A stretch of DNA of 64,000 bases from Thozetella sp. PMI_491 (lineage: Eukaryota > Ascomycota > Sordariomycetes > Chaetosphaeriales > Chaetosphaeriaceae). A program made the translations under genes and the position numbers. Under the pieces are notes generated by a model, which saw only the letters and a list, made by a program, of their open reading frames with translations, had not been told where the DNA came from and ran no database searches. Below are positions 731-58,400 of this stretch, piece after piece. Positions within the stretch are counted from its first letter, which is position 1. Each line of letters begins with the position of its first letter. The DNA lies in the NCBI GenBank assembly GCA_021432635.1, contig MU270031.1:941994-1005993 (forward strand), written 5' to 3'.

Positions 731-945
731 TTAGACAATTTTGGCCTGGAGCTCCTCTATGTATTTCTTGGTTTCATTTTCCCACGAAGCAAATCGCGTG
801 AGGCCGTCCTGGAGCATAGGATTGGTTCTAACGTCCTTATCGTTATAATCGTAAAGGACAGCGCCTGCGAGGTAGTCGGCATCAAGGGAGTAGACCTGGG
901 ACTCGTTGGTTTGGGCTAAGGCCCAAGCAATGCGCTCAGCGGGCT
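731..945 (-). pseudogene. Unidentified C-terminal protein fragment fused to the ABC relic
   Basis: About 65 codons run open on the minus strand, from roughly AERIAWALAQTNES through SLDADYLAGAVLYDYND to the stop at 731. They look like the end of a real protein, with balanced composition and no low complexity. They do not resemble an ABC transporter C-terminus, which should continue from the NBD2 Q-loop into the signature motif and Walker B. I do not recognise the family. The fragment is directly abutted by the ABC NBD2 remnant in a different frame, so it probably marks a deletion or rearrangement breakpoint. Confidence 0.35.
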
Positions 946-3870
946 CGCCCGGCGTCGGCCTGACGAGTCTAAGTGAGAGCGAAGACTCTCGTCTGGATTC
1001 AAGCAGGTCTCCTGAGGTAGCGTGATGAAGCACCGTTGCTGCAACAGCGGGCGCGGTATTTGCGCAATGTCTATACCGTCTAGCCTGATAGTGCCCGAAT
1101 AGTCTCCTAGACGTAAAAATGACGAAAGGAGCGTCTTTTTGCCACTATTGAGTCGGAATGGGTTAGGTCTTCCAGGAATGCCAATGCTAGAACAAGAGGC
1201 TCAATAATAAGGGCCATACCTTCCGCTGCGGCCACGAAGCAATAATTTCTGGCCTGGTTCAACTTGGAAAGTCAGGTTTGACAGCACTGGTTCACATCCG
1301 CTTTGGTAGAAGAGTTAGCTTATCTCCATCATCTCCATTGCATATTTTTCTGGCTCAACGTGCTTACGGGTATGCGATAGTCAAGTCATTGACTTCCAGT
1401 CTACCGATAGAAGGCCAACAAGGAGACGGCACTGTTAAATCTCTGCGTTCTTCTTCCTTGGGACTCTCAAGCTGCATGCCTCTCAACCTCTCCACTGCAC
1501 CGAGTGAGATATCAAGATTGGCCCACGAATCAACAAGTTGACGCAGGGCAGTAGAAATCCCGAGAAGAATGTTTAACGTGATTCCTATCCCCACTTTGCT
1601 GGAGGCGCCGGGCAGGTACATAGCAATAGCTATGACTGCAACTAAAAACCCAGCTTCGATAGTATTCAGAATAAAATCCAGCCACCTCTTGAGGGAGGAC
1701 ACGGTGTAGAAAGCTTTCTGGGATCGCTCGAGGCGCTGCATGCTGCGGGCTCTCATCATCCGTTGCCAATCCATGGCCCGAATGGTAATGACACCGTCAA
1801 CCTATGAACGGTGAGCTGACAGTTCGACTTCAAGTTTGTTCTAGGATGGCTAGAGATTACTGTTTCCAGAAACGAATCAAAGACGGCAGACCGTGACCCT
1901 ATGTCTATAAGTCGAAGTTGACGTGCCGTTTGCATGTATAACCACCGAAAAGAGTACAACGCAATGAGGCAAGGTGGCAAAAACACCAATGTCCGAACCT
2001 GAATGGTGCAGAGTACCATCATCTGGACAATCAACTTGCAGATTTCTAAAGACTCTGAGTCATATATCCGTAGTGAACACATCGATGAGTAAGGACTTAC
2101 GACTTGCAAGAGCCAGCACGGAGGAAGGCAGAGCCGTGTCGACTTGTTTAATATCCTGGCTAAATCTTCGCTCAGTCAGTCTCAAGATTTTTAATTGTCG
2201 AAACCAAGATTCCGTACCGATTCATTATCTCCCCGACATTTGTGTCAGCAAAATATGACACCGGAGCCCTGTTGATCATATGAAAGGTGTCAGTAGCGTC
2301 GGCAAAGGATGGTCTCCCTCGGGAAACCGAGAGATATCATCAGCTAGGCAGCAAACCCGAATCGCCTGGTCATATCTGGCCATATCAGCCTCTGTGTCAA
2401 AACCGCAGACAATGTCTCGGATCGTCGCATCCGGTATCCAAGGCTTTTGTGCACAAAAGCCTTAGAAGCGTGATAGCAATAGTAGCCTCTATACTATTAG
2501 CCAAGAGGTCGTAGAGCATCCAGCCCATGTCATTGCTGACGAAATCGCAGTCAGTACTCATCAATGCCGTAGCACGAGCGCCAGCAGCTGTTTCAACACG
2601 GAGAGTGTGCTCGTAGATGAGACTGACAAGAGTAGTACGTGTCTTGACACGCTGTCGGCTTAGCTAGTGCTCATAGACCAAATTCGAGGTCTATCATGGG
2701 ACTTCAATACATTTCTCACACCGCAACACTGAACATGTGAAATCGCAAGTGGACCGGGATCAACCTACAGCGATACCGAAAAAGATCAGAACGGCACTTG
2801 ATATAATCCACAAAGGGCTTCTCTCTGGGTTGGACCTGTCATGACCTGCAGGCACGAATCTTACGGCCTCACTGATTAAGACTGGCTGCATGAAGCGTAA
2901 TATGATTACAAACAGCCGCGGGACAAGTATTTTTTGCAGACCCCTTTGGATGATGATTAACCATGCCAAGGTTGTAGCACGGCTGATTTTAGATGTGACT
3001 ATCATGAACAGGTTAGCTTTAAGTCCTTAGATATAGGCAACTCAAGACTATACGAACGCTGGTTCTGCCATGCAACCACAATGTCGTCTTTCTCTTGATT
3101 ATATGCCAAATCGGGGTCCAGAGCAAGCATGTCCTCCCCCTTTAATCGCTAACATGCCCCTCGCCATACAATAGGGTTCATACACAGAAGGAAGGTTCTT
3201 GGAATGATCTCCATGCTATACTCTTGCGACTGCAGAGTGGAAATAGACGAGTCTGGTATGTTAGATCGGCTTTCTAGCCACAAAGAAAAGAACTGAAGTA
3301 CAAGCTTCATGTAGTGTATTCTGTCGCCCTTTGTCCACCCGTTTGTCAAGGAACCTGGTAAATTTGACGGAAGAGTCCACGTGGGCCTCAGAACCAGCTC
3401 GTGAGCCAAAGAGACTATAAGATAGATTGAAGTGATGTCTGATGGTTGACGCGACCTGACGTGCTCGAGCATGGACAGTGGGCACAGCACAAGGGGCGCT
3501 GCCAGGCCCAATAGATGCGCCGCCAAATTCACTGCCGATTAGGCAAGCCAGGCGAATCCATAATGTCAATAATGCCTCCCACCGTGGCTACGGCTATCAA
3601 TGCCATGAGAAACTATGAGGTGTGAGATGGAAAGGAGAAAAGGAAATCACACTCTAGGGCATTGGGGCGGATGCAGCCTACTGCCTTTGTCCTGCCATCC
3701 CAGGTTTCCTGAGACTTTTTGGATTCATGCCGCAGCTGAAGATATCGGCGCACAAAGCAAACCAGAAAGAAAATGTTGAAAAGTGCAAAGCCTGTTGGCA
3801 GCCAGAATTGGAATGGCGCCATTTCTGACCGCAAGTACGCTAGGGCAAGCCAGAAGGAGAGTGACAACTG
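946..3870 (-). pseudogene. Degenerate ABCC (MRP-type) multidrug ABC transporter
   Basis: Successive minus-strand pieces follow the order of a fungal full-length ABCC transporter. There are TMD0 helices (about 3870-3613), a TMD0/linker piece ending PRTFLLCMNPIVWRG (3532-3149) and TMD1 (3005-2500). Next come an NBD1 Q-loop piece with AQKPWIPDATIRD in the minus-strand frame (about 2460-2300), TMD2 with APVSYFADTNVGEIMNR and RFSQDIKQVDTALP (2285-1360), and an NBD2 start (1290-950). Frames change repeatedly and stops interrupt them. The second half of TMD1, the NBD1 Walker A and everything after the NBD2 Q-loop are gone, and the NBD2 P-loop reads GRSGRYG instead of GxxGxGKS. Intact relatives are about 1400 residues, whereas this relic spans only 2.9 kb. 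It cannot make a working pump. Confidence 0.8.
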
Positions 3871-4521
3871 CGACGAGTATTTTCTCTAGAAATATTATGT
3901 CGGTTATGTCTTGAATGAAATGTAAAAGATCATCGATCTCATACTAAGGCTAGACCGCCTGGAACGAACCGCTTCTTGTGCCCGACTTGTTCTACTAAAC
4001 GCTGCATAGGGAATCAGGCTCTAAAGCGGCTGCTAGATGCACCCCGGATGTCACGCAAAAATGCTCTCATTCTTCCTAGCTCCAGTTTCTAATAGAATAC
4101 AATTGAATCGTGAAGGAAGTGAAGGTGGCTTGTGGAGGCACAGTAAGCTAGTAAGCTGAAACAGGGATGGGTGAGCTGTCAGCAACTACTACAGTACAAT
4201 ACATAGTATATAATAGTACGTGCCAGGGTTCATATGCACGATGAGCCGGACTCCGGGGTCCCGCCCACAGGGGTGTTCTCACACTACATAGTGAGTATCC
4301 AGTAGCACTTAGCACTTTACGCCCTGTCCAAGGAGCGACCAAAAAACTGCCCAGGTGTGGCGCTAGCGAACGCTACACTGTAGTACCTGCTCCTAAATAG
4401 TAATGCATCTTCCTCGTTTATTCTAATGGTGGCCCGAAATAGTTAGAAATGAACTGAGTGAATTAATTGGGAGTTTTCACAACTTTGCAACATAGTTGTC
4501 AAAAAGTCAGAAACCGCCAGT
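3871..4521. other. Intergenic between ABC relic and SDR relic
   Basis: No family-like coding frame was found. The stretch serves as the 5' flank of both the transporter relic (minus) and the SDR relic (plus). Confidence 0.4.
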
Positions 4522-6300: not shown

Positions 6301-6894
6301 TTAACCAATTACAACAGCTCCATCAGGATCCCGTCCAATCACGACAGCTCCATCAGGGTCCCTCTCGGCCACAACAGCTCCATCGGGGTCCCTCTCAATC
6401 ACGACAGCTCCATCGGGGTCCCGCCCGACGACAACAGCTCCGTCAGGGTCTCTCTCAGCAACCACGGCGCCATCGGGGTCCCGTCCGATGACGACAGCTC
6501 CGTCGGGATCCCTTCCTATCACAACAGCTCCGTCGGGATCTCTCTCGATCACAACAGCCCCGTCGGGGTCCCTCTCAATCACAACAGCTCCATCGGGGTC
6601 TCGCTCAGAAACCACAGCTCCATCGGGATCTCGTCCAATCACAACAGCTCCGTCGGGATCTCTCTCAATCACAACAGCCCCGTCAGGGTCCCGTCCGATG
6701 ACAACAGCTCCGTCGGGATCTCGTTCAGCGATCACAGCTCCGTCGGGGTTCCGGGTTATAAAGTTATTTGTGTTGTAGTTGGCTAGCGTGGATGTGATTG
6801 CTCGAGTCTTCTCAGTGTTCTCGATGGGCAGGGCTGCCAGGAATGAAGGGAGAAGCAACAACAAAGTTGCGTGAGGGGCATGGCTGATCTTCAT
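6301..6894 (-). CDS. Secreted decapeptide-repeat protein, 15 x RDPDGAVV(I/A/S/V)(E/G)
   Basis: This 197-residue intronless frame starts with a clear signal peptide (basic MKISH, then LLLLLPSFLAALP, residues 1-23). A short linker (24-47) leads into 15 contiguous ten-residue units that run to the last codon. The first unit reads RNPDGAVIAE. The other 14 keep RDPDGAVV exactly and vary only at the last two positions (IG, IE, SE, AE, VG). Codons vary at third positions between units, which suggests the protein sequence is being conserved. There are no cysteines and no Lys-Arg kexin sites, only a single Arg per unit. DPDG is a strong turn former and GAVV a beta strand, so a beta-roll or fibrous surface protein is possible. 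A repetitive peptide precursor is the alternative. I do not recognise the family. A TATA box lies about 100 nt upstream. Confidence 0.75.
   Translation of the reverse strand: MKISHAPHATLLLLLPSFLAALPIENTEKTRAITSTLANYNTNNFITRNPDGAVIAERDPDGAVVIGRDPDGAVVIERDPDGAVVIGRDPDGAVVSERDPDGAVVIERDPDGAVVIERDPDGAVVIGRDPDGAVVIGRDPDGAVVAERDPDGAVVVGRDPDGAVVIERDPDGAVVAERDPDGAVVIGRDPDGAVVIG
6304..6753 (-). repeat. 30-bp tandem repeat array, 15 copies, coding
   Basis: Fifteen 30-bp units, each encoding one decapeptide, abut without spacers. Differences cluster at synonymous sites and at the two variable codons. The period is a multiple of three and the units lack stops, so more than one plus-strand frame is also open through the array. 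Confidence 0.9.
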
Positions 6895-6992: not shown

Positions 6993-7000
6993 TTTATATA
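6993..7000 (-). promoter_or_regulatory. TATA box of the decapeptide-repeat gene
   Basis: The minus strand reads TATATAAA about 100 nt upstream of the start codon at 6894. That fits a core promoter with a short leader. It also supports the minus strand as the coding strand of the repeat. Confidence 0.5.
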
Positions 7001-7765: not shown

Positions 7766-8853
7766 TTGGGCAACATGTGGAATGACCTAGCCGCCTTCTC
7801 CCGAGCAAGGCTACGCAATCTAGCCCTTGCTGCTGTTATACTGCTTCTTTGCATTCTGAGCCTTACGCAGCATCACCAAAGCTGGGCTGGCGCCTGGGGG
7901 GCTACGGCGACCGGCCAAAACACGACCCTCGGGGTAAAGGATTCGTTCGAAATATCCAAAAGCTCACATTTGCTGATTCACAGCTTGAATAGTTTGAAAA
8001 AATTGTTGTCGTGTCGTCAGGAACGTCATGGCGTGTCGATGGGTTGATTGAAGCTGCCAGGTTTACCGGCATCGGACTGGAGATACCGAAACAACCGGAG
8101 TGGTCCGACAAAGAAGTCGACGCGTTTCGGGGCGCCGATTCCGATGGGAAAGCAAAGAAGCTTGGTCCCGGACAGGCTCGCTGCTGGCTAGGACATCTCA
8201 ATGCGATGCACGAGATGCTTACCCAGCATTGGACCACTGCTCTCATCGTGGAGGACGACGCCGACTGGGACATTGCCATCAAAAACCAGGTCGCTGCGCT
8301 GGCGCCTGTTATCCGCAAGGTATCCAACTCCTCTGAAACTGGCAGTCAGTGGTCACCATACGGCGACTCGTGGGACCTCCTATGGGTTGGCAACTGCGGT
8401 GATCTATCGCCTGGCCCGGATGCTATCTCCATCATGGACATCACACTGCCAGACTCGCCACTCTACCGTGGCGTATATGGAAAATACAGTTACCAGGCAC
8501 CACATATAAGGACGGTATACCGATCGATATCGCCTTTGTGCACATACGCGTACGCGATCACAGCGAATGCGGCACTGAAGATTTATCAAGCCGCAAGCAA
8601 AGGGGTGGACCGCATCATTACCATAGAATTGAGAGAAATGTGCCGAAAAGGCCATCTCCGGTGTTTTACTGTCAGTCCGGAACTTTTCCATCACCATAAA
8701 AAAGCGGGCGAAGTTTCGAGCGAGATAGCTGTTGTGGAGGGCTGGGACGACCTCGCTACGACAGAAAAGGTCGGCTATACTGCAAACATACGGTACAGTG
8801 CACGATGCAATAGTCAGAATAAAGGTTTGGTGAAGTGCCAGGATGAGAATTAA
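7766..8853 (+). CDS. Glycosyltransferase family 25-like, type II membrane protein
   Basis: The two exons, 7766-7933 and 7993-8853, encode 342 residues. The intron (59 nt, GTAAAG...ATAG) restores the family-like segment TLGFEKIVVVSSG. A signal-anchor helix (LALAAVILLLCILSL) near the N-terminus predicts a Golgi/ER type II protein with a lumenal catalytic domain. GT25 hallmarks are GHLNAMHEM followed by ALIVEDDADWD (acidic EDD near residues 142-144), then DLLWVGNCG and a YAYAITANAALK segment. The usual DRRD stretch right after the first strand is not obvious (WRVDGL instead), which may alter donor binding. Fungal GT25-like proteins are common but rarely characterised, so the acceptor is unknown. 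The start could also be the Met at 7775. Confidence 0.75.
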
Positions 8854-9249: not shown

Positions 9250-11287
9250 TTATTTGTCAAGGATGCTGGCAAGTATTGTGCTGATATAGTCTGTTCCGGG
9301 TCTCCGCTGGTCGTCTTCCTCAACCCAGAACAGCTCTGTTTCGTTGAAAACAATATTTTGCGGATGTTTGGCCGAGTATTTCGGCCAAAAACTCGTCCCC
9401 TTGGTTGCAATTCCGATGTTAGGGTCGAGTGAAGTGATAAACCCCGCCCACATCAGTCCGACGGTACTCGCCATTTCATAATAACCGGGCTGACGGTGTT
9501 GGGACCATGAATCTTGGAAGTTCTGAAACACTACCTCAAGCTCGGCACCGTGCCTAGAACCCTCTTCCGGATTTCCGGATTTGAAGTTCTTTGGGGTATC
9601 CCATCTGTAGCTATAACAAGAAGAGGCTTGTGAATATGCTTTGCACGTGAGCCTGGTACCGGCATTGATCTCGATGTCGCCGAGCACGGCGTCGGCTCGC
9701 CGGTAGACATCAGCATCAGTCACAGACTGAATAGGGGGATCTAGCTGTTCCTGCGTATTTGCGGCTGGATAATGTGAGAGAAGACGGTCTACAATTGGGG
9801 GAGGAATGTGTCGATAAGAATCTGACATGACATCATGGTCAGAGAGTGCAACAGCTATATGTTGGGAAATCGGGATGAACACTCTCACCTCGTAGATGCC
9901 TCTCTAAATCGTCATGGCTCGCGAGATGGGGTGGAATCCAGTGAAATCCCTCGTTGGATGTGGATCCAATCATGATTGGGACCTTCACGAACTTGGATTC
10001 CGCCAGGCTGATGCTTCCGTATGTCTGGACAAAGTCGCCATCTATAGCCGGGAGCGCTAATGCAACCATGTCGACGCTTTTCCCTTGTGATCCGTCATCA
10101 AATGCGTTGTTGAGTTCTTCAAATGGCAAATTGCGAAGGCAGTCCAGCGTGTCCTCCTGGCCAGCACAAGTGGCTGCAACTACCCGGTCATAGGCTGCCT
10201 GGGCGGGGGCATGCCTGTAGTTACTCTTGACGACCGGACTTCCGCTCTGTAGAATAGCGGCTCTGAATAATCTGTCGTCCCTACCGCCGTACGCGGTCAA
10301 ATGCAGGCCAACATCGTCCGCGCCGCTGCTCCCACCCCATATCGTGACTTTGCGAGGATCTCCTCCGAAGGCAGCGATGTTTTCCTGTACCCAGTGGAGG
10401 GCAAGTCTCTGATCTCGGAGCCCCAGATTTAGGTTCCCCGTCCCTTGAGCTTCTCGGCCGGCCACAAAGCCAAGAATGCTCGACCGGTAGTTAAAAGAAA
10501 CAGCCAGGAAGGGCATGCCATGCCGCGCGGCATGCGACGCGATGAATGATAAGTTGTACATTCTGTGTCGTGCGCCACCGCCTTGCCCAGCGCCACCATA
10601 GATCCAGACTGCTACGGGAAGCAGTGTTGGGTTCCCGGCCGATTTTGGGGTAATGACATTGATCGTGAGGCAATCTTCGTCTTGTGGATACCCGGCGTAT
10701 TGATCCTGCAACACGAGATTTATTAATACCGCCTCGTACCGGCGATAGAAACGTATAATAGCACCTACATCGTATACCGGACATACGGGTCCGTAACTGG
10801 TCGAATTTCGAACCCCTTCCCATGATCTATTCACAGGCGCCGGTGGTCGGAAGCGAAGAGGGCCAAGAGGTGGTAAGGCATATGGCATTCCCAGAAATTG
10901 ATGCTGCTCATTCCTTTGGTCATAAACAGCCGCGTATGTTCCGTTGATTGTTTTGGCCAGGCCGTTGAGCCTGGCTACAGTCGTCAACTGTAAGCTCATC
11001 AAAGTCCACAGTATCCAGCCTGTGAGCAGGATAAGAAGCGGAATCGCCGCGCCTGGCCATTTCTTCCCGCGTGTCGCATTTGTGCTAATTCCATCCGCAT
11101 CAAGCTCTCTATCCCTTGGAGCGAGCCTCTGGTATCGTGTAGTTTGGAAAATGTTGAGCATGATTGGGATAGACAGCAGCTGCTCCTTACCGAAGCTTTG
11201 GTGTTTAGTCGGGCTGCTACCACCGAAGACTGACGTACTGGAGAGCCAATGTTCGATAGGCACAGATAATGGCTTCTGCGTGTTCAA
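9250..11287 (-). CDS. Type-B carboxylesterase/lipase family, membrane-anchored
   Basis: Two minus-strand exons, 11287-9889 and 9821-9250, flank a 67-nt intron (GTGAGA...TCAG). Together they give 656 residues. A single hydrophobic segment (IPLLILLTGWILW) about 80 residues in makes it a signal-anchored extracellular or lumenal enzyme. Carboxylesterase features in order are QFLGMPYALPP, EDCLTINV, an oxyanion-region YGGAGQGG, the nucleophile elbow WGGSSGADD (Ser near residue 319), the acidic SNEGFHW and the catalytic-His region RHGAEL. The elbow is GGSSG rather than the commoner GESAG, as also occurs in some fungal members. The family hydrolyses carboxylic esters; the substrate is not predictable. 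The start may instead be the Met at 11161, which better fits a short cytosolic tail. Confidence 0.85.
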
Positions 11288-12218
11288 TTGCTGGCCGAGG
11301 TGTGCGCTTAGCTACAAGCCATGGCTTCTGGACTGGCAAGCAGGCATGACCCTGGCCGAAGCGCTAGTTCAGGCAAGTGGGGGATGCATTGTAGTACTTG
11401 CAGAAGGATGATCCACTCCTGTTTTAGGGACAGTAATCGGATTACTGGGCACCATCTAGAACATACTCCGTAATCCTGCGCTGCTGAGACGCTAGTGCGA
11501 GCAAAGCAGTGAACCAGGGTCGTAGTTGTGGCCTCAGCAAGAATAATGCGGCCCCCCGCAAAAGCCCAACTAGCTACGGTACCCAGCTTTAATCATACAC
11601 CATAATCTAGGTTAGCTGACATAGTATGATACGGAAACTACTTGGCTCAATCTTCGGCGGACATTCCCCTGCAAATTAAAACTTAGCTGACCCAAGGTAG
11701 ATGCATCCAGCGCCACACTGTTGACATTACCGAGGTCAGCCCACTGTTCGTGCGGAGAGAGTGGCCAAGGATGTCTTCTCGAGGATTTCCGGGAGTTTAG
11801 AATCAAGTTTTCTGATAGAGATGGCCACCAATCAAGTACAGAGCAAGTCAAGATTTGGAAAGCTACGAAGAGTGGTAAGGGTATAGTTCCCTGGTTACAT
11901 AACTTCGTAGGCAGTATATAAGATCCAGAGTCTAGCCCAGTGCTATGTTCCGTAAACTCCCTCGTGTAACGGCCCATTGTCTCGCAAACTCCGTTCTTTG
12001 CAATCTTTAATATACATATTCGTGTCTGGACCCTTGAATAATTTTCTTAACTCCCCCTAACCTCCTTCGAATGGGATGCCCATATGATATGAAGAACGAG
12101 GCGTTAGATTGCTGCGAAGAACCCACTCGACTGATCACTCATATCGATGATGCAGTCAAAGCTAGTAAGATTAGTTTCTTTTTCATATGATATCTATTTT
12201 GGCCGCTAAACATTACGA
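11288..12218. other. Intergenic (divergent promoters)
   Basis: No convincing gene in either strand. It separates the divergent esterase and fructosamine-kinase-like genes. Confidence 0.4.
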
Positions 12219-30350: not shown

Positions 30351-33300
30351 CTACTCGCGCATCTCCTCGGACCAGAACCGCTCCCAGGCTTCGGTCCACT
30401 TCTTCTGCTTTAGCTCCAACAGCCAGACATCGAACTTGACCTCCTCGGTCTCGAATTTCATGATGCCGTCCTTTAGGCCCTTCCATCCCTCCACCGGGGC
30501 TTTGATGTGCTTGTGGCCGACAGGACAAAGCGTGCGCCAGTCGGGCGGTAGCTCGCCACTTTCTCTGGCCAGCTTCTCGTGGTAACACTACACACGGAAT
30601 CCAGGTTAGCACCTCGGCATCGTAAAGGGCCAAGCCTCCAAGAAAGCATACCTTCTCACACAGGGTCAGCTCAGTGCAGTAATAACACATATAGACGGAG
30701 CCGTGATGCCAGTCTTTGATCTCCTCCCTGCAGTTGTTGCAAGTGATTTTGCCGTGAAGATCGTCGTAGTCTTCGTCGGGATACGTGGGCTCTTCATTGG
30801 CGTCTTCCTCTTTCTTCTCGCCATTCGCCTCAGTTTCCTTCGATGCTTCGGGCTCGTTTGCTGCTCCATTGGCCGCCTCTGGCTTCTCATCCCCGGTTTC
30901 TGTTGCCTTTGCAGCTCCATCCTTTGCTTCCGTGGTACCGTTAGTCTCAACGCCATTGGTCACGGCTCCATTTGCCTCGGCCCCGTTAGTCTCAATTCCG
31001 TTCATCTTGGTCCCGTTTACGTCAGGATCTTCTGATTTCTCTGTGATGTCGTCTTCTTTCTTCTCCATTTCCTCCGAGTCGTCCTCATCATCTTCGGCAT
31101 CCGACACCCGTTGTTCATCTTCCTTCTTGTGGAGTTCCATGTCGAGAATATACAGCTGGCACGTGGCCGCGATCCTCGAGTCGCGGTCTAGGCCGGGAAC
31201 ATAGGCGAGGACTCGGGCGAGGATGCGGAGACTCTGGCTGTCGTTTCCCACCGTTGCGTCCGTTAGCAGCCCGAGACAGCCTTGGAAGGTCGCCTCGAGG
31301 CCCTTCTGGAACTCGACGGCGGCGAGCTTGCGGGTCATGTAGGCAAGTGGAATGGTGGTTTGCGATTGGGTCCAGTCGAACTCCTGGATGTTTTCGCGCA
31401 TCTTGGCGACCAGGGCCTTCATCTCGCTCTGCGCCATCATCTTCTTGTTAGGGTCTCGCGTGCTGCGGAACTCCTCCACCAGGATATCGGCCACATAGAA
31501 GGATGCCTCTGAGAGCTGATCGCTCTCGTTCGATACGCTCAGAACCTTCCGCAGCAGCTCCTTGGCGCGTTTGAAGCTGTCGGGACCCCGGATGACGGTG
31601 CGATAGAAGGTCGCGAGGGGCATGATGATATTGGCAGAATACGAGGCCGGAGCCCCCCACGTCAGTATCGTGCGGAGACCGTTCTCATACGTCTTGATGA
31701 CCTGTTCCGTCTCACCTGTCTCCTTGCCGGCGCGCTGCAGGTGGATTCCAACCTCATTGTAATTCCAGGCCCATACCCATTGCAGGTTTGCGTCATCGTC
31801 CTTCATCACCCTCGTCATATCTATGATCCGGGACCACTGGCTTAGCTTGGCAAGATTCTCGATAATGCCGCTAGTGTCCATGGGTCTATTTTGCAAGGGA
31901 ATCTTGTTGGCCTCTTCGATGTACGAGATCAGGTTGTCCGAGCTGCCATTGAGGAGCTCAGCCTTGGCGCGTGTGACGTGGATAATGACGATAGCCCTCT
32001 TCAGCTCAGCATCTTCCTCTTCCTCCTCGGAATAGGAGATCTGGGGAATGAGTTCGGCCGCGGTCCGCAGTGTCTCGCAGGCTATTTCTACCCAGTTCTT
32101 GGGGGGCTTGGCAGGCTCATTTGTCGGCTTCTCACCCTCTGCGTCGGGCTTATTGCCGGCTTCTTCCTTCGAGCCCTCCTTCTCTCGCTCCTTTGTCTCC
32201 TTTTCTGCCGTTTCTACCTGCTTTGCTGCCAGCTCATAGAGTGCTTGTCCCATTTTGCAGTACACGAGAAGCTTTTCTTTTTCGTCGTCATCCGCGGTCT
32301 CCAATGCGGTTTGGAAGTGGTCGATGCTAGCCTCGAAATGGTCATACCATTTCAGGGCCATGCCTATGGCTCGGTAGCACTGGGACGTCATTGTCATCTG
32401 CATCTGCCAGAAACTTTTTGAAACAATCGTGATCGAATCAGGCGTGATATCAACATCAGCATCTTTTTCTCGCTTCTCGAAATAGTCGCGCAGTTCTGGC
32501 TGTTGTTTTAGAAGTGCCTGACCGTTCTTGAGGGCGTTATGGGCGAACAGGAAAGAACACCGAGTCGCGATGTCGTCCTCACCGTGGTACATGAACCAGT
32601 TGTTGACGTGGCCTTCTGCTAGGCGGATGTGGATGATATCAGGGTTGCGGATGAGCGGCCGCATCCACTCAGCGGTGCCGGGTGAAAGCTTCGAGGCTGG
32701 TAGATGAATGGCCCTCGACGCCCATGCCTTAAGCGTCTCAAGGGTCTTCTCGGAGTCCTCTCCGAAAACTGAATCACCGCCAAATCTCTCAAACGCCTTC
32801 AGGGCGTTGTTTCGGTTAGACAGGAGCGCATATATGCCTTCGATGACCTTCGCCGCTTCGTCGTCGCCCAGCTCGTCGATTTTGATCTCAAAAAGGTGGG
32901 CGATCCAGTGCGAGCTCGCGTACCGAGCAAGATCCACGTTGTTCCATACGAAGAAGGACTTTGGGAACGGCGTACTCGTGAGGATAGAGGCAATGCTCGA
33001 GAAAATCATGGCGTGCCCCTGGGTTGGTGAGCTGCGAAGACCAATCTCCTCCGTCTCCTTCTGGCAGAAGAATTGGCGAAGTGAGCGCTCTTGGAAGCCG
33101 AGGAATATGGTCCAGTCTTCGGAAGAGCCTTCGTCATCACGGTCCTTGTCGTTGTCGCCCTTTTCCGATTCCTTGTCGCTCACATCTGAATCTCTTTCAT
33201 CATCACCCCAGGTGACATTGGACAAACGGAGGACTCTGTATATTTTCATCAGTCATGCGTGCCATCGGAAGAAAAGCTTTCTGGAAAGGCTCTCACAAAG

Positions 33301-35527
33301 CAGATCGATGCTCGACCTCATCATCGACATTTAGCCTATTGCTCTCGTCGATGTGCTTTAGCAGTTGTGTGGCTTCTGCCATGTTGAGCGGCTCTTTGGT
33401 GTATGCTAGCCATGCAAAGAAGATTCTCAACACCTTTCGGTCTTCTTCGGTGCGTGGCCGTGCACAGTCATCGAGCATAAGTTTGTAAAGCGCCTTTGTA
33501 TCCTTCGGCAGGCTTTCGAGCTCTTTCATGATCGGTGCTTCTCTTCCAATGCTGTTCAGCCTACGCATCATGTGGTCGATGTATCGGATGTCTAGGGCTG
33601 TGTCAGCGAAGCTCAAGGAGTGGCCGTAGAGTGGCCGTAACGTTGCGGTCTGAAACGTACTATCTGCCTTCTCACAGATCCTCCGCGTTATCTTCCCCTT
33701 GGTCCTGGACCTCAGTTTGCGAAGTATGGAGAGCTGCTTCATTCTCGCTGTGACAATGATTTTCATATCCTTCTCGAGTCTCTTCTTGTTGAGTTCGAAC
33801 CTGACCACCGGGGCCTTGATGGAATCAAGGAAACCGGGCTCGCTGGTAAATACCATCTGAATGTTGGTCTCAGATTTGTGAAATGAGTTGACGAGTTTGA
33901 CGAGCTCCTTCCGGGACTCCTCTGACGCCTCGTCGACTCCATCAAAGAGCAGAACGACTCTGCGATGCCCTTGCTTACCAAATTTGGAGAGGAAGAGGCG
34001 TTTCCACATCTTCAGCGTAGGCTCCCTATAGTAGGTTACGCCGTCATGCTGCAGGTCAGCCAGGACTTCTTCGCGGTATCGGACATCCTGCTGCGCAACC
34101 TGGAATGACATGGCTCGGAGCGCTATTGCAGCACTTCCGTAGTCCTCTTGGTCTTGGCTGAAGAAGGCACAGGCCACGGACACGTCCGACTCGCCCTCAA
34201 ACTCTTCCCGCAGCGCTCTCTGCATTGAGTAAACCAAGGATGACTTCCCCATACCAGGCGCGCCACAGATCCAAACAATAGGTACTGTTCCCCCTTCCAG
34301 ATCTTGGAAGAACATCTCGTCCCTGAGCCATTGGAATGTGCCATGGACGTGAGAGGTTTCGATTTCTGTGAGCAGCTCCTTCCAGTCGTCTGAAGGGTAC
34401 ACCATTGCCTGAAACATTCGCATGGCGGTCGACCTACGTGCCCCGCCGTCCATGTTCTGATCGGTGCCGGCCTTTCCCCGTTGCTGGGGCGTCCGCATCC
34501 GCTCGATCTTGCGCTCGATTCGCTTCATGGCAGCATTTTGCTCCTGCTCGTTGCCGTCCTGGCGGTTTACAACGTCTAGGATCTCCTGAGCACGAAAAGC
34601 AGCCTCCATAGCGTGCTGCTTCCCATCGACGGCTACCGCTATCGCCTCCTCTCCTAGGGCGTATATCATTTGTCCTTGAGCAAGGTTCTGCTGGCCCACG
34701 ATGAGACCCTGCTGTCCCAACTCGACTGCCTGGTTTACTCCTGACTGAATCGCCTTAAATTCTTTTCCGTACGAGTCAACCTTCCTCGACGTGTCGATGG
34801 TGACCCGCAGTGTGGCGATCATGGTGGCCTGCTCGAATCTCTGGAGGTGCAGGTGTAGGGAATCAAAAGCACCTGTGAGGCTCTTGTCGTTCTTCTCGAC
34901 CAGGGCCTTTGCCCATTTCTTGAGGCGACCCTGTTCCGTGCGATACTTCCTCGCAATGGCCGCAAGGGTGAGCAGCGACTTGAACACGTTCATGAGAAAG
35001 ACCTGGAACTGTTTCAGATCCGGCATTCTGTTTTCAAGCATCGCGATGCGCTCGAGGAAAGAATTCATGATGTCGAAGAATTGGACCACCATGTCGTAAT
35101 CTTCGGACACAGCCTTCGAAGCGCTCATGACGTAGTTGAAGGCTCTAGAAGCGCGGTTAGTACCCGCCACCCTGGAGATAATTCATGGAGTCGCTCACGT
35201 CAGGATGGCAGCACTAGGCGGAAATGCGGTGCTGGCGGCATTGGCGACGTAAGTAGCCACGTTCTGAATGATGGCCGAGTTCTTAGAGACGAGGGTCCGG
35301 AGCTTATCCACGCGGCCCTTGTCATGGCGGAACTGGCCGAAGAGTTGTAGCTGCTCCTCTTGTTCGCCCAGGATTCTCCCCATGTTCCAGCGAGAAGAAT
35401 CGGAACCTCGCAGGTCCGTTCCACCCGATTCATGATAGTAGTCGTTAATTGCCTGCTCCCATAGAGCACCCATGTCCGTTACCTCGTCGCCCATCGGAGC
35501 GCCGCTGTAGTAGCTTGCAGCGGCCAT
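30351..35527 (-). CDS. NLR-like STAND receptor: Goodbye - NACHT - helical/TPR-like - ZZ zinc finger
   Basis: Five minus-strand exons (35527-35199, 35144-33661, 33597-33297, 33235-30652, 30587-30351) join to 1644 residues with all phases consistent. The N-terminus (about 20-135, from ALWEQAINDYY) resembles the fungal STAND Goodbye domain, a death-inducing or signalling region in fungal NLRs. A long helical linker leads to the NACHT NTPase, with Walker A ICGAPGMGKSS (about 403-413) and Walker B VVLLFDGVDEAS (about 508-519). A winged-helix-like part follows (LPKDTKALYKLML). Residues about 600-1400 are helical with TPR-like pieces (CYRAIGMALKWYDHFEASI). Then come an acidic Asn-Gly-rich linker and a ZZ-type zinc finger (about 1535-1572): CNNC, then CYYC, then LCEKCYH. 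Such proteins sense non-self or damage in the cytosol, often in heterokaryon incompatibility. The 63-nt intron at 33598-33660 is optional because it is stop-free. The start at 35527 is preferred over the Met at 35635. Confidence 0.85.
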
Positions 35528-37529
35528 CTCGTCGCCGGTAGCCCCACTGACCGAGGCAGCAGGGGATCGTGGTAGTTTCTTAGCGTCGTATGCGAGTAGG
35601 ATATAACGATAAGAACAGGTGATTGACCACCGCACTCCTCTACCTCGTGAGGCACTCTCAGGGCATAGCCTAGAAGACTAAGTAGGATACGATACTTGGT
35701 ACGTGTCCACAAAAGGCCGAGGCCCTTCGAAGATATCTTCTGCAGGTAGCTCTCCCGGCCGGCAACCCCCCTGGCGCGGCTGATGGCGCCCTTTCCCCTG
35801 CCGCATCCTTATTGCAACAACCTTAGCCCGTAGAGTATCAGTATGGAGAGCCGCGCAAGCGCTAGGGTGCACATGGGTCAGAAGCTGAGAGGCACCACAC
35901 CCTGGTCGTTCCAAGTTGCGAATCAAATAGCGCCAATGGACCCCCGCACCAGTCAACCGACATGATAGTCCCATGCACTAATTGCTGACTTGCACTCCCA
36001 AGATAGTACTAGACAATTAGCAATCAGCTGGGATCAGCCAGCCTTGCCGGCCCAACTTGGCAAATTGGGTACAGATAGATTAATGGTATCGCACCACACT
36101 GCTCGGCGACGGATAGTGGGTCTCATGCGGGCGGGTGCCTCGGCCTTACCCTACGCATCACCAGCCAGCCAGCCAGCCAGCCACTCGCTGGCTGCCCAAG
36201 GTAGTACCGGCCATGCCGACATCCTGTATCTCGATGTCGAGAACCTAAGCCAGGTATTATCTCAACAGGACCGTATAGTAGAGACAGTAGGCGTGAAAGG
36301 GGGGATGAGGACAGACCTGATGACATATTGTATCGTGCAAGCCCAGGAATCTCGAAAGTACAGCTTATCATGCGTTTTTGTTGTCGCATGTATCGTCGTC
36401 TCACCACTGCTGACGAACTCTTCAGAGCCAAATGGCTGTCTCACCCTTCTCACCGGATATCAAGCAGGACTCGCATGTAGCACATATTCTTTGGCACTCT
36501 TGCTCAAACTCGGGAATAAACAACGCTACTTCTGTTCATAGTGGAGCAACCTGTGACAGATGAGTGTTGAGCAGTTTGCTCACTTACATGCATGCAACAT
36601 TAAGACGCGGCGATAATGAACCAGGGTCCGCGTGAGATTATCTTATATACAGAAACTTAGTGTCATCCTCATCGCTATGCATGCAAGTAGTTGCATTAGC
36701 CTAACGGCTTGACTGGAGAGAATATTCCCTGATCGAGGAACAACGGTGGCTGTGGCTCTCGCCCCGGCAGACGATCCAGTTCCCCGCCCCCAGACAAGGA
36801 ACGGCCCGCACTCAACGGTCCACGAAGCTCGTCGCGAGGATTATGAAGCCGGCTGAGCCTCCCGAAACAACCCTGCAGCACTAGTCTGTGGCTAGATATG
36901 TTTCGTAAGCAGCAGTATTACCACAATTACTCGTACAGACACATACGAGCTGCAATCATAGTCGAGAAGCAGTGGTGCCAAGGATGGGTGGTTGGCCTCT
37001 AGGGTGCTAAGTCAATGATTTGCCCCTGATGGAAAGTAATATTTAGGGAGAGCGTAGAGTACCTTGTCTTACACATCCACGCTAGAGACGATGGGCGGCT
37101 ATTATCGCAGCCAAGTGTACTATTCTATCTGTGCACGACAGTCAATATGAAACGGATACCTCCTCTTGACCAGCCCTACACCAGGGTCCATATATGTATG
37201 AGTAGATATTTTGAAGCTTCATAATAAAGATGCGTTCATTGGTTCTCCCTTTTTTTGCGCCTAGCAGGACTTCCGGACGTAGCTCTATCTAAATAGGCAC
37301 AAGTTTGGACCATCAGCGATATCGGCCCTGAAATGGCGATTAAAGTTCGCCAAGACCCAAGATGGGACGAACTCGCTCATATAGGGGAGATATTTGGCAA
37401 AGAATAGGGGCTAAACTAGGATTATATGCAACCTCTATAGTTTCTTACTCATCAACTGTGCTAGTATTGCAGCACTGCCCCGACTACATACCTAATTAAC
37501 AACGCTGAGATCTTGTTCCCTCTTAAGCT
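35528..37529. other. Intergenic, 2 kb, with a CAGC microsatellite
   Basis: No family-like gene. The promoter of the NLR lies in the first few hundred bases. A 183-codon plus frame at 35990-36541 is crossed by the microsatellite and has no recognisable domain. Confidence 0.4.
36160..36198. repeat. CAGC tetranucleotide microsatellite with hairpin
   Basis: Five to six CAGC units are followed by a short inverted copy (AGCCAG...CTGGCT), giving a small stem-loop. Confidence 0.7.
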
Positions 37530-51608: not shown

Positions 51609-53891
51609 TCACATAACCCGGAACGACACCTGGCCTGGCTTAAGCCGATCGCTGCCCAGGTATCGCGCAGTCAAGCCCCTGGGATTCGTCCCCTTCCAGG
51701 CCGCTAGCGAAAAGACAACTTCGCTCTCGATCGCTTCCGTCAAGGTGACTGACAGCGGCTCCGCGATGTCGCCGTCCAGTCTCACCACCCCGGTCACAGG
51801 CTCGCCAGGACCCGCTGACACCTTCACAGTCACCTTGGCCGGTTGGTCGGCAGTAGCGGGCGCGACCTGGGCAGTGAGGATGGTCGGCCCAGTTGGCGGC
51901 TCTTGGTATCCATTGCTGGTCAGGTTCCATGCCGGGCGGTGGTGGCATGGCACACACCCCGGCCAGTACGAGTCCGGCACGCGGCCGCTGACTAGGTTGC
52001 GATACGCGAACCACATTCTCAGGATCTCGGGCCAGGTCGTAAATCGCCCCACGCCACCCTGGAAGCCGGTCTCCCGTGGTGCCCCGATCTCGGTCAGGAG
52101 CAGATCCGGCGGGTACTGCTTTGTGAGGTCCCTGTCCGCCGGGTTCGTTGCGTTTGGCGCGCGTGCCTTGACTCCCGGCCATCCGTCCTTCCACTTGGAG
52201 GAGGTCCAATAGAACTCGTCAATGGTGACGCTCCAAAGCCGCCAGATACCATCCTCGAGGATCATTTGGTCGTGGTAGATGGCACCCCGCAGAAGCCCGT
52301 CGCCGGTCCTGTCCGTGGATGGCTGGAGCAGTCGGGCACGGAGGCTGGCGGAGCGACCATCCTGGGAGACGAGGATCACGGGCTGTGGCCTCCAGTGGAA
52401 ACTGATGCCCTTTCGGCTCAGGGTGGCGTTTGTACCGTAGTATTGTGTGCATGCCTTCAGGACCCGCTCCCGTGTCTGGTAAAAGCCGGCAAAGGGGGAC
52501 TCCTTGTTTCCCTTCCTAGCATGTATGTTGGCCATGTTGGTGCAGCCGACGCCGTCAATGAAGTCTATGTAGAAGCCGTACGCGTTAGAGACATTCTCGA
52601 CACCGTCATAGGCAGCGGACTTAGATAGGCGGCGTTGCAGCTCAGCGAGGTCCGTACTCGTTCCATCAAACGGTGGTCCTGCCAGCGTGGATTCCTTTCG
52701 TGTGTAATCCAGGAACGGTGGAAGGTCTTTCTCAGCAATCAGCGGCGAGGTACTGCCGCTTACCCAGCCGGTCGAGTAGTTTGCTACCACCAAGGGCGAT
52801 ATGCGCACGTCCTTCAACTTCCATATTCCATCTTCCTTGATGAAGCGGTTATAGAAGAGGTTGAACTGCCACGCTCCAGCAGTGTTGTTCGCGTCGCCAA
52901 CAATTCCAATTTCTAGGCCACGCGTCAGAGCTTGCTGGTTGCCGTTTTCCATAGGCCTTGGATGGATGTGGACCATGGTGTTGAAGATAAGACGGTCATT
53001 TAGCACGCCCTGGCTTAGTCCCTCAGGTCCCATCCACTTCTCCAAACCTTGTCGGATGCCGGATCGCTCCGTGAAGGTACCAAACTTGTCGATCTGGAAG
53101 CTCGCATTTCCCGTCGGGAATAGGTCCACGACATCTGCCCACATGCGGCGGTCGACGTAGTACCCATACGCATGCTGAACGTTGCGTACTTCATCTTCGT
53201 CATTGAGCATTGCGATGCGCCGAGCGAGGTCCTCCGGAGTCAGGTCCGTCTTTGGCGCACTGCCAGTAGGCGGAGGAATAGGTATTCCGGATTCATCACT
53301 TGTAAAGTGATATGGCACGTTTCCCAGAGACTGCCCTCCAGGATTGTGCCAGCCCTCAACGTAGGTGCCATTGTAGAGCGGATAGTATCGAAGCAGCGAA
53401 ATCTTCCAGCCGTCGTCTCCCAGCTTGTATTCGTTCTCGTATATGCCACCCTGAAGCCTCGTCTTTCCTTTTCCATCTCCTTGAAACCACCAGCCGTTGT
53501 ATCTTGCCTTTGCTGATTTACTATCACTTGCGAGGTTAACCAGAGGATTTGCGAGCACCATGGCGCTGAGTGACCCCGGGTTGAGGCCGTCCATGTCTCC
53601 TGATTCGGTTTTGAGCCATCTCTCAATCGCGACTTGGCCCTTGGCAATAGATCGATCCCACTGGATGAGGCCATCCTCGCTGAACAGAGAAGCCATCTGC
53701 TCCCAGCGCCCCACCTGCGCAAGCTGGGCGTAGGTAGACGTCACATCTTTGATCACCCGGACCGACTCCACCGCTTGAAGATCTCGGGCAATGGCATCAA
53801 GGGAAATATTGACTTGAAGGGCAAGTGAGACATTGCCCAACGCAAGGAAAGCTGGCAACCTCATGCTGTAGGTTGGCGTTGAGAGCTGCAA
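51609..53891 (-). CDS. Secreted protein with three NTF2/SnoaL-like units, a CxxCH motif and an Ig-like C-terminus
   Basis: This 760-residue frame has no introns and begins with a signal peptide (core MRLPAFLALGNVSLALQ). Three related segments recur. Unit 1 is about 30-175 (STYAQLAQVGRWEQMASLFSE), unit 2 about 220-375 (HAYGYYVDRRMWADVVDLFP) and unit 3 about 415-570 (NAYGFYIDFIDGVGCTNM). Each continues with a conical-barrel pattern ending in WKISLLRYYPL, WKLKDVRISPL or WRLWSVTIDEFYW. This is the SnoaL-4/NTF2-like fold of scytalone dehydratase and polyketide cyclases. After unit 3 comes GCVPCHH (about residues 645-651), a CxxCH pattern as in cytochrome c, then a beta-rich Ig-like end (VKVSAGPGEPVTGVV). 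Catalytic residues cannot be assigned by eye. I infer a secreted dehydratase/cyclase-like or binding protein. Confidence 0.75.
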   Translation of the reverse strand: MQLSTPTYSMRLPAFLALGNVSLALQVNISLDAIARDLQAVESVRVIKDVTSTYAQLAQVGRWEQMASLFSEDGLIQWDRSIAKGQVAIERWLKTESGDMDGLNPGSLSAMVLANPLVNLASDSKSAKARYNGWWFQGDGKGKTRLQGGIYENEYKLGDDGWKISLLRYYPLYNGTYVEGWHNPGGQSLGNVPYHFTSDESGIPIPPPTGSAPKTDLTPEDLARRIAMLNDEDEVRNVQHAYGYYVDRRMWADVVDLFPTGNASFQIDKFGTFTERSGIRQGLEKWMGPEGLSQGVLNDRLIFNTMVHIHPRPMENGNQQALTRGLEIGIVGDANNTAGAWQFNLFYNRFIKEDGIWKLKDVRISPLVVANYSTGWVSGSTSPLIAEKDLPPFLDYTRKESTLAGPPFDGTSTDLAELQRRLSKSAAYDGVENVSNAYGFYIDFIDGVGCTNMANIHARKGNKESPFAGFYQTRERVLKACTQYYGTNATLSRKGISFHWRPQPVILVSQDGRSASLRARLLQPSTDRTGDGLLRGAIYHDQMILEDGIWRLWSVTIDEFYWTSSKWKDGWPGVKARAPNATNPADRDLTKQYPPDLLLTEIGAPRETGFQGGVGRFTTWPEILRMWFAYRNLVSGRVPDSYWPGCVPCHHRPAWNLTSNGYQEPPTGPTILTAQVAPATADQPAKVTVKVSAGPGEPVTGVVRLDGDIAEPLSVTLTEAIESEVVFSLAAWKGTNPRGLTARYLGSDRLKPGQVSFRVM

Positions 53892-54534
53892 GACCTTCGC
53901 TGTCGTGTCAGTGAGGGGTGAATCGGGGCCCGCTTGACGCTGTTATCATGGTGATGACAGTCCGACATTTAAACCAAGGCACGGTGGCGTCTACAGGTCA
54001 AGCTGACGGAAATTAAATTGATCCTTAAGATGGATGTCGGCAACGGGACCTGAGCAGGCGGCGGTAGCTATGGGATTCGCTTAGTACCCCAGATCTTACC
54101 CGCCCCCGGGAAATATTTACGGCCCCTCACAACGAATTATAGGCTCAAGTCATGCAACCACACAAAATACCCTAGGTCCTCTCAGTCGGCACCACACTTC
54201 CGTCGCCAACCAAACAGCGCTATAAGCTACAGACCGCATGGCTTGGCATTCATCAATATCCCACGGGGTAGAGGCGGCCCGCAGCGCACTGCACATTCAT
54301 GATGTTATGGCACAAAGTCTCGGAGGACTTTTCAGACTGTTGCATCGATGAGAAAGATTTTTTTCGGCTTGAACAGCCTCGGTTCTCTTCGTGGTTCATC
54401 GGTTTGCTCGCTGTCGATTCAGGGGAAGTCAACAAACAATAAAACGTTGCTTGCCTAGAACCATATGCGGGACCCTAACCCTGACGATATTGCTCTTCAT
54501 AACAATCTATGCATTGGGCTGACCAGCGAATGAA
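53892..54534. other. Intergenic (divergent promoters)
   Basis: No gene seen. It holds the divergent promoters of the NTF2-like gene (minus) and the YjbQ-family gene (plus). Confidence 0.4.
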
Positions 54535-55444: not shown

Positions 55445-58400
55445 TCACGTTATCTTGATCTCAAAGTATTCTCCTTGCTGCCGTGCTGCCGCTGGGTCAG
55501 AAGTTGGGCTTGGCACCCGCAGAGGAGTCATCATAGCCGGTAGGTCCTTAGATACGGCCGAGTTCTCCGGAGACGACTTTACAAGCTCCCAAGAAGGAGT
55601 TGTTGGCGTTCTGGCAAACACGGATGACGACTGGGTGAGAAGGCTTGACCTGGTCATCGACCCCTCTTCGTCGTCACTGTTTGTGCCGCTGCTGGACTGC
55701 ATGTATCCAATCGCCACCAAGTATCTCAGTGACTTTCGCAATGCCATCTTCACAGCTTCTTGTTCCTCCCTCTGCTCCTCCTCTGACAACCCGTTCAACG
55801 GCTGGCCCAGGACTCCTTTCTCATCCAAAAAGTGTAGCACTGGCCAGAGGCGATGCGTCTTCCCAATCTCGCTCACATATTCTCTCATTGAGGACACCCA
55901 CTTCTTGGCCTCCACTTGGTCGATGGCTCTTCCAGTCTCTTCCATGACAATGCTCCAGAACTCGCCTACCGTGATGCCGCAGAGCACCTTCTTGATAGTA
56001 ACACGGACATCCCCATTGTCGAGGCAGCTGGCCAGGACGGTTCGTGCCACTAGGTCAACGCCAGCAGCAGCTAACCACATGTCATTCTCGCTACCGTTGT
56101 ACATACCCGAGTCCAGTGCACTGGCTGTCACTCGCCACAAGAAGTCGTCGGTGTTTGCAATTCCGTCAACGGAGTCGCCCATGATCAAGGGCGGCTTGAC
56201 TATCGATATGCTTTGCGGCAAGTTATGCGCAGAATGTCTCGCTGCGAGCTTCGCAACGAGGTTCTCGGCCACGAATTTGGTCTGGCTATAGGCAGGGTAT
56301 GCAGATGTGTTCATCTCCTTGGCTATCTCGCCAACGTTATCCGGCGCGGTGGAGAGGTGACCGCCGGAGACATAGGTAAAACGTGGCACAGGGCGACCGG
56401 GGATAGAAGCAGCTTCGCTGATAGCATGCAAGAGGTCCGCCGTAGATACAATGTTGGCAGGTGTGAGTGCCGTATAGTCCGCTAGCCAATGCACCACAGC
56501 GCCGTTGTGAATGATGGCATCGACATCGTCAGCCAGGTCAGCATTACGGTGGCAGAGGCGGTCCCACTGGGAGTTATCAAGGCCGAGCCTAGGAAGAGCA
56601 AGATCGCCATGCCAGACTTCAATACGCCCTGCATAGTCATCTTGCCACCAGGGATTGGACTTTCCGACGGACAGCAGCCTTGCGGTTGCATGTGCAGGGT
56701 CCCGGCCTCGAACCAGCGCGATGACCTTGCGCGTTGCAGAACGCTGAAGCAGCTGCGCCATGATCTGACTTCCGAGGAATCCAGTCGCGCCGGTGACCAA
56801 CACAATCTCTGGGATCTCCTTCGGAGGTGTAACTGTTCCTGGCAAAGTGTGCTTGGCGATCTCGGCATCGTACTTCTCGATCTCCTTTAAGAAATCTGTG
56901 TTTTCTGCAGCGCTCGTGGGCTCCATTTCTGCTACCCGTCTTTGCTTCGCACTCATAACCCAGCCAGCGATGTCGCGTATGGTGGCGCTGCTTGTCATAT
57001 ACTTCTGCACAGGGATGCTGACCCCGTACGTCTTCCGAACAAAGGTTGAGAGGGAGATGACTTGGATTGAATCCATCCCAGCTTGGTATGGGTTGAAGTT
57101 TCGTCCGCGCAGTGTGCTTCCGTACTCTGGATCTGTGGAGAATAATTGATCGACGAGGACACGGCTTATCGCCATGGCCACCTCTTCCGAGTCCTCAAGT
57201 TTCTCGGGCCCAGAGTTTCTTCCGTTTGAGGACACAAGCGCATGGAGCTCGCTTGGTGATATTGAAGAGGCGTGTTCCCGTAAGGCCTTCCTGTCCAGCT
57301 TGCCGGTCGAGGTGAACGGCATCTTGTCGACAGGGATGAAAGCGGACGGGATCATATACACAGGCAGCACGGCCCCGAGCTGCTGCTTGAGCTTTTCGGA
57401 GAGGCCGCCAATAATTGCAGTCTGCTCGGCCTGTGAGTGCTCTCCTTGGTGGCCAAGCCGGACGAAAGCAACCAGCGCTTTGGCAGCCGAACCAGGAAGC
57501 ACAATGGCGTCTGCAGCGACGACAGAGCCCTGTGGGAGACTCGCGCCAAGGTGATACTCGATCTCACCCAGCTCAACGCGCTGGCCACGAATCTTGACTT
57601 GCGTGTCCTTCCTGCCAAGATATACAACAGACCCGTCCGGGTTGTATCTGCCCAAGTCGCCTGTTTTGTACAGCACGCGACTCCTCCCGGATGTTTCGAA
57701 TCGGGACATCCACTCGGGGTTGGTTATGAATGCTTTGGTAGTCTTTTCATCGTCATCATGGTAGCCCCTGGCAACATTGGGGCCTTCGAGCAGCAGTTCT
57801 CCGACGCTACCCACGGGTATAAGCTTGTCGTGGTCATCTTGGTCCACAAGCCAAGTAAGACAGTTTGCCCCAAATCCGATAGTGTCTGCCGGAGCGGTTC
57901 CGTCACTCAAGTTGGTTGTTACGCAAACCGCCGCCTCGCAAGGACCATAGGCGTTTACCAGGGTGACGGAGTTGGCCCAAGTAGCGATGCTCTCGCGGTC
58001 GACAGCCTCTCCACCCAAGTTCACTGTCCTCATTGTAGGCAGGTCGGCTGGCCGAAGAGTTGATGCGAAGGAAGGGGTGAAGAAGGCCCAGTCAGCCCGG
58101 GAACGAGTCACAAACGCCGCAAGGTTACCGGTGCGGTCCGATTCTGACGGGATACACAGAGTCGCCCCCAAGACCAGCGAGTTGACTATCTCAATGATGC
58201 TCACATCGAACACATGAGCGCTGAACTGTAGGATCCGCGACGAACTCGTCATGAGCATCGGCCCCGACTCTCCGTATGCAGCGGAGGCTAGGGTTTGGTG
58301 CTCCTGCACCACGCCCTTGGGTGTTCCCGTTGAGCCAGATGTGAAGAGAATAGAGGCTGCGTTTCTGGGGCTGACTTCAGTGCTCGAGAACGGTGCAACG

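Follow-up and report, generated by a model that had tools for sequence, protein, structure and literature searches.

A decapeptide-repeat protein of Thozetella sp. PMI_491 as a candidate secreted precursor of short peptides cut at single arginines

A decapeptide array kept by selection

The stretch of DNA analysed here (hereafter, the window) comprises 64,000 nucleotides of contig MU270031.1 (positions 941,994 to 1,005,993 of the forward strand, assembly GCA_021432635.1) from the ascomycete Thozetella sp. PMI_491. Its minus strand holds an uninterrupted open frame of 197 codons (6301..6894; ATG at 6894, stop at 6301-6303), which encodes a putatively secreted decapeptide-repeat protein. The protein begins with a signal-peptide-like start (aa 1-22, MKISHAPHATLLLLLPSFLAAL; 6829..6894, minus strand), recognized by eye and by hydropathy, with a best nine-residue mean of 2.58 and a cut position that is assumed. 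This start is followed by a spacer or pro-region of 25 residues (aa 23-47; 6754..6828, minus strand), whose last residues, FIT, adjoin Arg 48, with which unit 1 begins. From there, 15 units of 30 bases each, R[D/N]PDGAV[V/I]xx, follow one another without gaps (aa 48-197; 6304..6753, minus strand). The array occupies 150 residues (76% of the protein) and reaches the last codon, so that the last unit runs into the stop codon at a unit boundary, without a trailing Arg. Tandem Repeats Finder recovered the same 30-base array, with 15.0 copies. The coordinates, the minus-strand frame, and the 15 contiguous units reported by a sequence-only reading of this DNA are thus borne out. The units are limited to V, D, G, A, R, P, I, E, N, and S, and neither a Cys, nor an N-glycosylation sequon, nor an adjacent basic pair occurs in the whole 197-residue protein. 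A possible promoter element, TATATAAA (6993..7000, minus strand), lies 106 bases upstream of the ATG, although matches of this type number 5 in the window against 3.8 expected, which makes the element weak by itself.

The units combine considerable divergence in their bases with a nearly invariant protein core. They differ from each other by a mean of 7.16 of 30 bases (range 1 to 13, over all 105 pairs), with units 4 and 8 being only 1 base apart, and for this reason the array is not a fresh expansion. Nevertheless, 14 of the 15 units read exactly RDPDGAVVxx, while unit 1 reads RNPDGAVIAE; the earlier claim that variation is limited to positions 9-10 and to synonymous sites therefore holds for all units except the first. 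At these two positions, the array carries IG in six units, IE in four, AE in three, SE in one, and VG in one. Both positions seem to be linked, as Ala or Ser at position 9 is accompanied by Glu at position 10 in four of four cases, and Gly at position 10 by Ile or Val in seven of seven, a linkage that may reflect descent within the array. The ratio of nonsynonymous to synonymous change (pN/pS) is 0.028 in the eight-codon core and 0.42 at positions 9-10. Relative to the consensus, 49 base changes in the core result in only 2 residue changes, both in unit 1, whereas 20000 neutral simulations, which take the units as independent even though they arose by duplication, gave a mean of 32.0 residue changes and a minimum of 19, with none as low as the value observed. 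The arginine codons of the array are of both the CGN and the AGR type. The eight-residue core is kept by selection, and the array is a selected coding array, neither a product of chance nor a young microsatellite.

The repeat is also open in two frames of the plus strand, which brings in the alternative that this is a minisatellite, or an array coding in antisense, and that the minus-strand gene does not work. One of these frames, a TTAPSGS-type repeat of Ser, Thr, and Pro (6305-6775), shows a pN/pS of 0.23 and does not reach an ATG until 6488, by which point the array has already begun. The other frame, with an ATG at 6226, has a pN/pS of 1.53 and no hydrophobic start by eye. The lowest value among the six frames, 0.12, belongs to the minus coding frame, in which nearly all variation of the core codons is synonymous, with Arg codons switching between CGN and AGR. 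On these values, antisense coding was rejected, the open TTAPSGS frame is explained as a shadow of aligned third codon positions, and the alternative as a whole is very improbable.

Kexin-like context of the array arginines

The arginines of the array stand in a context that resembles kexin sites. The expanded Kex2 motif, [LIV]xxR, is found at 14 of the 15 array arginines, compared to 89 of 514 background arginines, the latter taken from 20 other reading frames of the window (frames, not confirmed genes). When the motif is required to be followed by [D/E][P/A], the array still contributes 14 of 15, and the background only 4 of 514. These 14 arginines are all embedded in [IV]-x-[E/G]-R followed by D-P-D-G, while the fifteenth, which precedes unit 1, is found in FITR followed by NPDG. 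An XP or XA dipeptide follows every array arginine (Asp-Pro 14 times, Asn-Pro once), against 73 of 514 in the background. The P2 residue is Glu at 8/15 sites and Gly at 6/15, and an aliphatic P4 together with a P2 among Lys, Arg, Thr, Pro, Glu, and Ile is observed for 8/15 array arginines and 56/514 of the background. The sequence-only reading had described the protein as holding no kexin sites; this is correct for dibasic sites, but not for the wider motif.

A Kex2 specificity wider than dibasic sites is known from the literature. In the portion of PMC6258133 concerned with Kex2 specificity, LxxR is strongly preferred by Kex2 in a library screen, the Kex2-dependent cuts in Candida Ece1 fall after IVAR, LITR, and VSER, and also after LIKK, and the expanded specificity is summed up as [L/I/V]-x-x-R. 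One of these Ece1 sites, VSER, is identical to residues 95-98 of the repeat protein. The passages of PMC8528282 on the individual positions include Glu and Thr among the alternatives at P2, and allow Val or Ile at P4. According to the site analysis in PMC2515848, positions P1', P2', and P4' downstream of the cut show an excess of acidic or small residues, and changing a KR/D site to KR/A makes it fail. The Ste13 motif, XP or XA downstream of a Kex2 site and with X often being Asp or Glu, is described in a section of PMC9769878, which also mentions that some peptides in Pichia seem to result from cleavage behind a lone arginine. In addition, the yapsin Yps1 cleaves after single Lys or Arg, as stated in an extract of PMC4353680. 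By its motif, the Asp-Pro following 14 of the array arginines is an alpha-factor-type Ste13 dipeptide. Searches of the Thozetella genome for processing enzymes, which covered the kexin P-domain and DPPIV_N, returned three DPPIV_N matches and one match to the kexin P-domain, the latter spanning introns or breaks and containing stop codons.

This protein is probably (at about 0.6) a secreted repeat protein processed by Kex2 at monobasic sites, and a precursor of short peptides. It would work like the precursors of alpha-factor, with one basic residue per site. Once the signal peptide is gone, cleavage by a protease of the kexin type, or by a yapsin, would take place behind the inter-unit Arg, within [I/V]-x-[E/G]-R|D-P. 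The Arg would then be lost to a carboxypeptidase of the Kex1 type, and the leading dipeptide (Asp-Pro, or in unit 1 Asn-Pro) to a dipeptidyl aminopeptidase of the Ste13 type. Up to 15 peptides are predicted as products, with the form DGAVV[I/A/V/S][E/G] when trimmed (DGAVIAE in the case of unit 1) and DPDGAVVxx when not. Cleavage would be expected to be easier where P2 is Glu than where it is Gly, and products of 20 or 30 residues may persist as a consequence. We infer each cut, the trimming, and the secretion, as well as any function that the peptides may have as signals or at the surface.

Known repeat precursors and alternative explanations

No second copy of the gene was found in the 72.3 Mb genome with the whole protein, its N-terminal 58 residues, or the unit patterns, and the N-terminal 58 residues have no paralogue there. 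The DPDGAVV pattern matched once on another contig (C50), and its two controls likewise gave 1 match each. A looser unit pattern gave 200 matches, including the 15 of the array, against 201 for the reversed control, with about 100 of the matches listed. Pattern-matching stretches were also obtained from viral contigs (28) and from prokaryote genomes (208), both of them collections without fungal genomes, and none was confirmed. In the open-access literature searched, DPDGAVV does not occur, and PDGAV is found in unrelated contexts only.

The whole-protein search of the genome gave four matches at E<=10, which were the protein itself, two antisense frames of its array, and a frame on contig C18 (a 25% match, E 0.19). 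This last match was rejected as a homologue, as the frame runs antisense to that of a canonical Kex2-processed repeat protein (KEP). The KEP (1441-1941 of locus L011 on C18, minus strand) has 166 residues, a hydrophobic start, and 13 units, DVEPFTGI in ten cases and GETEPFTGI in three, with a KR before each of them and a stop codon that is reached without a final KR. Most of its units follow a ten-residue period, and R|D is found at 10 of its 13 junctions. It therefore has in common with the window array the ten-residue period, the Arg-Asp junction, and a last unit without separator, although its units show no visible homology to those of the array. On its sequence, this locus shows that the Thozetella genome encodes canonical KEP precursors of like geometry. 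Because the C18 match turned out to be a canonical KEP with a ten-residue period, the estimate for the monobasic precursor was raised from about 0.55 to the 0.6 given above, and that for an uncut structural protein, considered below, was lowered slightly.

The repeat protein resembles KEPs in general, such as alpha-pheromone precursors, Ece1, and Rep1, in its signal-peptide-like start, its short pro-region, and its tandem near-identical short units, as well as in the Arg at P1 of the separators, the Ste13-type XP dipeptide that follows them, and the last unit ending at the stop. Its separators, however, are of the form [IV]-x-[E/G]-R (FITR before unit 1), and not KR, RR, KK, or RK. The KEP criteria, as given in the survey sections of PMC7329392 and PMC6339444, call for repeats separated by KR, KK, RK, or RR in the former, and by KR, RR, or KK in the latter. 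With 15 units of 10 residues, the array falls within the KEP size range (three or more tandem repeats, each of 8-100 aa), but it lies outside the published criteria because it has no dibasic separators. If it is cut, this protein works like a KEP, but outside the KEPs as they are defined.

Other comparisons are with more specific groups. The Rep1 repellents of Ustilago are likewise secreted repeats, and their amyloid-like assembly would be an analogue for an uncut structural protein. Unlike the decapeptide array, Rep1 has repeats of 34-55 residues with Kex2 sites between them, as described in part of PMC4617103. For ascomycete alpha-pheromones, the relevant part of PMC6339444 gives a core with two Cys (Leotiomycetes, Sordariomycetes) or with PYG[LM]P[IV]G (Pleosporales). 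Compared with these three lineages, the protein holds no alpha-pheromone core, as it contains neither Cys nor PYG[LM]P[IV]G.

Several points weigh against a precursor cut at single arginines. The protein lacks KR, RR, KK, and RK throughout, whereas the KEP on C18 has KR at every junction and, in addition, no XP or XA after its cuts, and thus lends no support to a Ste13 step. The preferred P2 residue of Kex2 is still Lys or Arg in the specificity data of PMC6258133, Gly is not among the tolerated P2 residues named in the corresponding passages of PMC8528282 and yet occupies this position at 6/15 sites, and P4 and P2 are jointly fitted at 8/15 sites only. Moreover, the 15 sites descend from one unit, which makes their agreement nearly one draw at roughly 1%, and the kexin motif was sought after the sequence was seen. 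Finally, DPDG and AVVI would also be expected of a repeat made of beta-turns and strands.

This last possibility corresponds to a secreted structural protein that stays uncut. Type I turns would be formed by DPDG or NPDG and short strands by AVVI(E/G)R, arranged as a beta-meander or as a solenoid with two units per coil, and the protein may assemble with itself in the matrix or at the surface of the hyphae. The two readings originally put forward, a precursor cut at single Arg residues and a structural protein with beta-turns, both stand. The structural one is consistent with the alternating propensities of the unit (1.50 for the DPDG turn and 1.46 for the AVVI strand, using Chou-Fasman-type values). 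A sequence search of the PDB gave 19 weak matches at E<=1, the best of them to PkwA (E 0.00025) and the following ones to designed beta-trefoils, with PDG in common; the PkwA chain is a beta-propeller. RHS and YD repeat models also exceed their cut-offs, with 46.1 bits against 22 in Pfam and 50.4 against 15.8 in NCBIfam, and both the array and these proteins place a DPDG turn before beta-prone residues. These scores are read as inflated by repetition, because the unrelated KH_2 likewise passes its cut-off (28.4 against 22). RHS/YD repeats carry Tyr-Asp in each repeat, whereas the array holds no Tyr and consequently no Tyr-Asp; it further differs from those proteins in its 10-residue period and its signal-peptide-like, presumably secretory, start. 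Membership in this family was not accepted. It also speaks for an uncut protein that KEPs were a minority of the secreted tandem-repeat proteins of fungi in one survey (7878 of 69264, in the figures of PMC7329392). Nevertheless, a structural role alone leaves unexplained both the Arg and Asp-Pro in a kexin-like context and the end of the array exactly at a unit boundary. We consider it the main alternative, but rather unlikely, and the fit of 14 of the 15 arginines to the kexin motif, with Asp-Pro following them, moves the balance towards the precursor.

The protein might also act whole and without a beta fold, as a secreted acidic repeat that is disordered or binds a ligand (e.g., Ca2+-binding, adhesive, or an effector). 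Its acidity argues for this, with an isoelectric point of 4.05 and a net charge of about -22 (aa 23-197), and two Asp per unit in 14 of the 15 units. However, the AVVI core is strand-prone, and the Pfam and NCBIfam matches include no calcium-binding repeat, which leaves this option improbable.

If the monobasic precursor is correct, its implications extend to how such genes are searched for. Both KEP surveys, under the criteria quoted above from PMC6339444 and PMC7329392, demand paired basic residues and would not list this gene; by the figures given in PMC7329392, that survey dropped 61,386 of the 69,264 secreted tandem-repeat proteins. Should the array be cut at single arginines, part of this remainder may hide peptide precursors, and the survey rule could be extended and then checked with peptidomic protocols that already exist. 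The motif itself is known, since the wider LxxR has already been used for pro-domain effectors and has enlarged the list of Kex2 substrates (in the part of PMC8528282 devoted to them); the novelty would lie in a repeat precursor that depends on LxxR-type sites alone. As a tentative proposal, for which the odds are somewhat unfavourable, there may exist a class of fungal repeat precursors with purely monobasic [LIV]xxR and acidic-Pro separators, processed by kexin, Kex1, and Ste13, and overlooked by surveys requiring paired basics. This gene would be its clearest form, with the choice of released peptides adjusted by the residue at P2 (Glu or Gly). The gene also offers a natural series of 15 near-identical sites, differing mainly at P2 and P3, that is useful for measuring kexin specificity.

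UstYa-type maturation and the surrounding genes

Dikaritins (ustiloxin, phomopsin, asperipin), which are ribosomally synthesized and post-translationally modified peptides (RiPPs), share the architecture of a secreted repeat precursor with this protein. They differ from it in their dibasic sites, in the Tyr, Trp, or His of their units, and in the UstYa/DUF3328 proteins encoded nearby. In the array, no unit holds Tyr, Trp, His, or Cys. A UstYa profile, built from three UstYa genes of the Thozetella genome and able to find a held-out fourth at E 1e-53, gave no significant match among frames of at least 40 residues in the window or in the 30 kb to its left (best E 1.7), and no UstYa (PF11807) is found on the contig of the window among the matches listed (150 of 203 candidates scored). 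Four frames with HxxHC, two in the left 30 kb and two in the window, were discarded as bare motifs without support from the profile. Likewise, a Pfam scan of 30 frames, a subset of those in the window, gave no match to a tyrosinase family. The earlier statements that neither a DUF3328 nor a tyrosinase gene lies nearby hold within these limits. With no UstYa match among the nearby frames of at least 40 residues and no Tyr in the units, UstYa-type RiPP formation or cyclisation is not supported, and a dikaritin identity is unlikely.

The 72 Mb genome itself is rich in UstYa, with at least 149 exon-level PF11807 matches, some of them tightly clustered (e.g., on contigs C36, C20, and C5). On C18, the UstYa matches, among the matches listed, are about 32 kb or more from the KEP.

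Close to the repeat gene, a short-chain dehydrogenase ends at 5574 on the plus strand, a glycosyltransferase-25 match below cut-off is located at 8011-8853 on the same strand, and carboxylesterase frames extend over 9250-11311 on the minus strand. Short minus-strand frames at 731-3885, with a weak ABC_membrane match below cut-off in one of the six scanned, are perhaps an ABC transporter in pieces. Further away, and also on the minus strand, a Goodbye domain frame adjoins an NPHP3_N/AAA frame (33293-35677), together resembling a fungal STAND-type protein, and a frame of 777 residues contains three SnoaL_4 stretches (51609-53942). Near the end of the window, a minus-strand frame of 2300 residues (55445-62347) encodes an enzyme resembling a non-ribosomal peptide synthetase, which combines two AMP-binding stretches with a condensation domain and two carrier domains and ends in an NAD_binding_4 reductase. 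Cytochrome P450 frames and a DAO-type oxidase are found in the same window as this enzyme.
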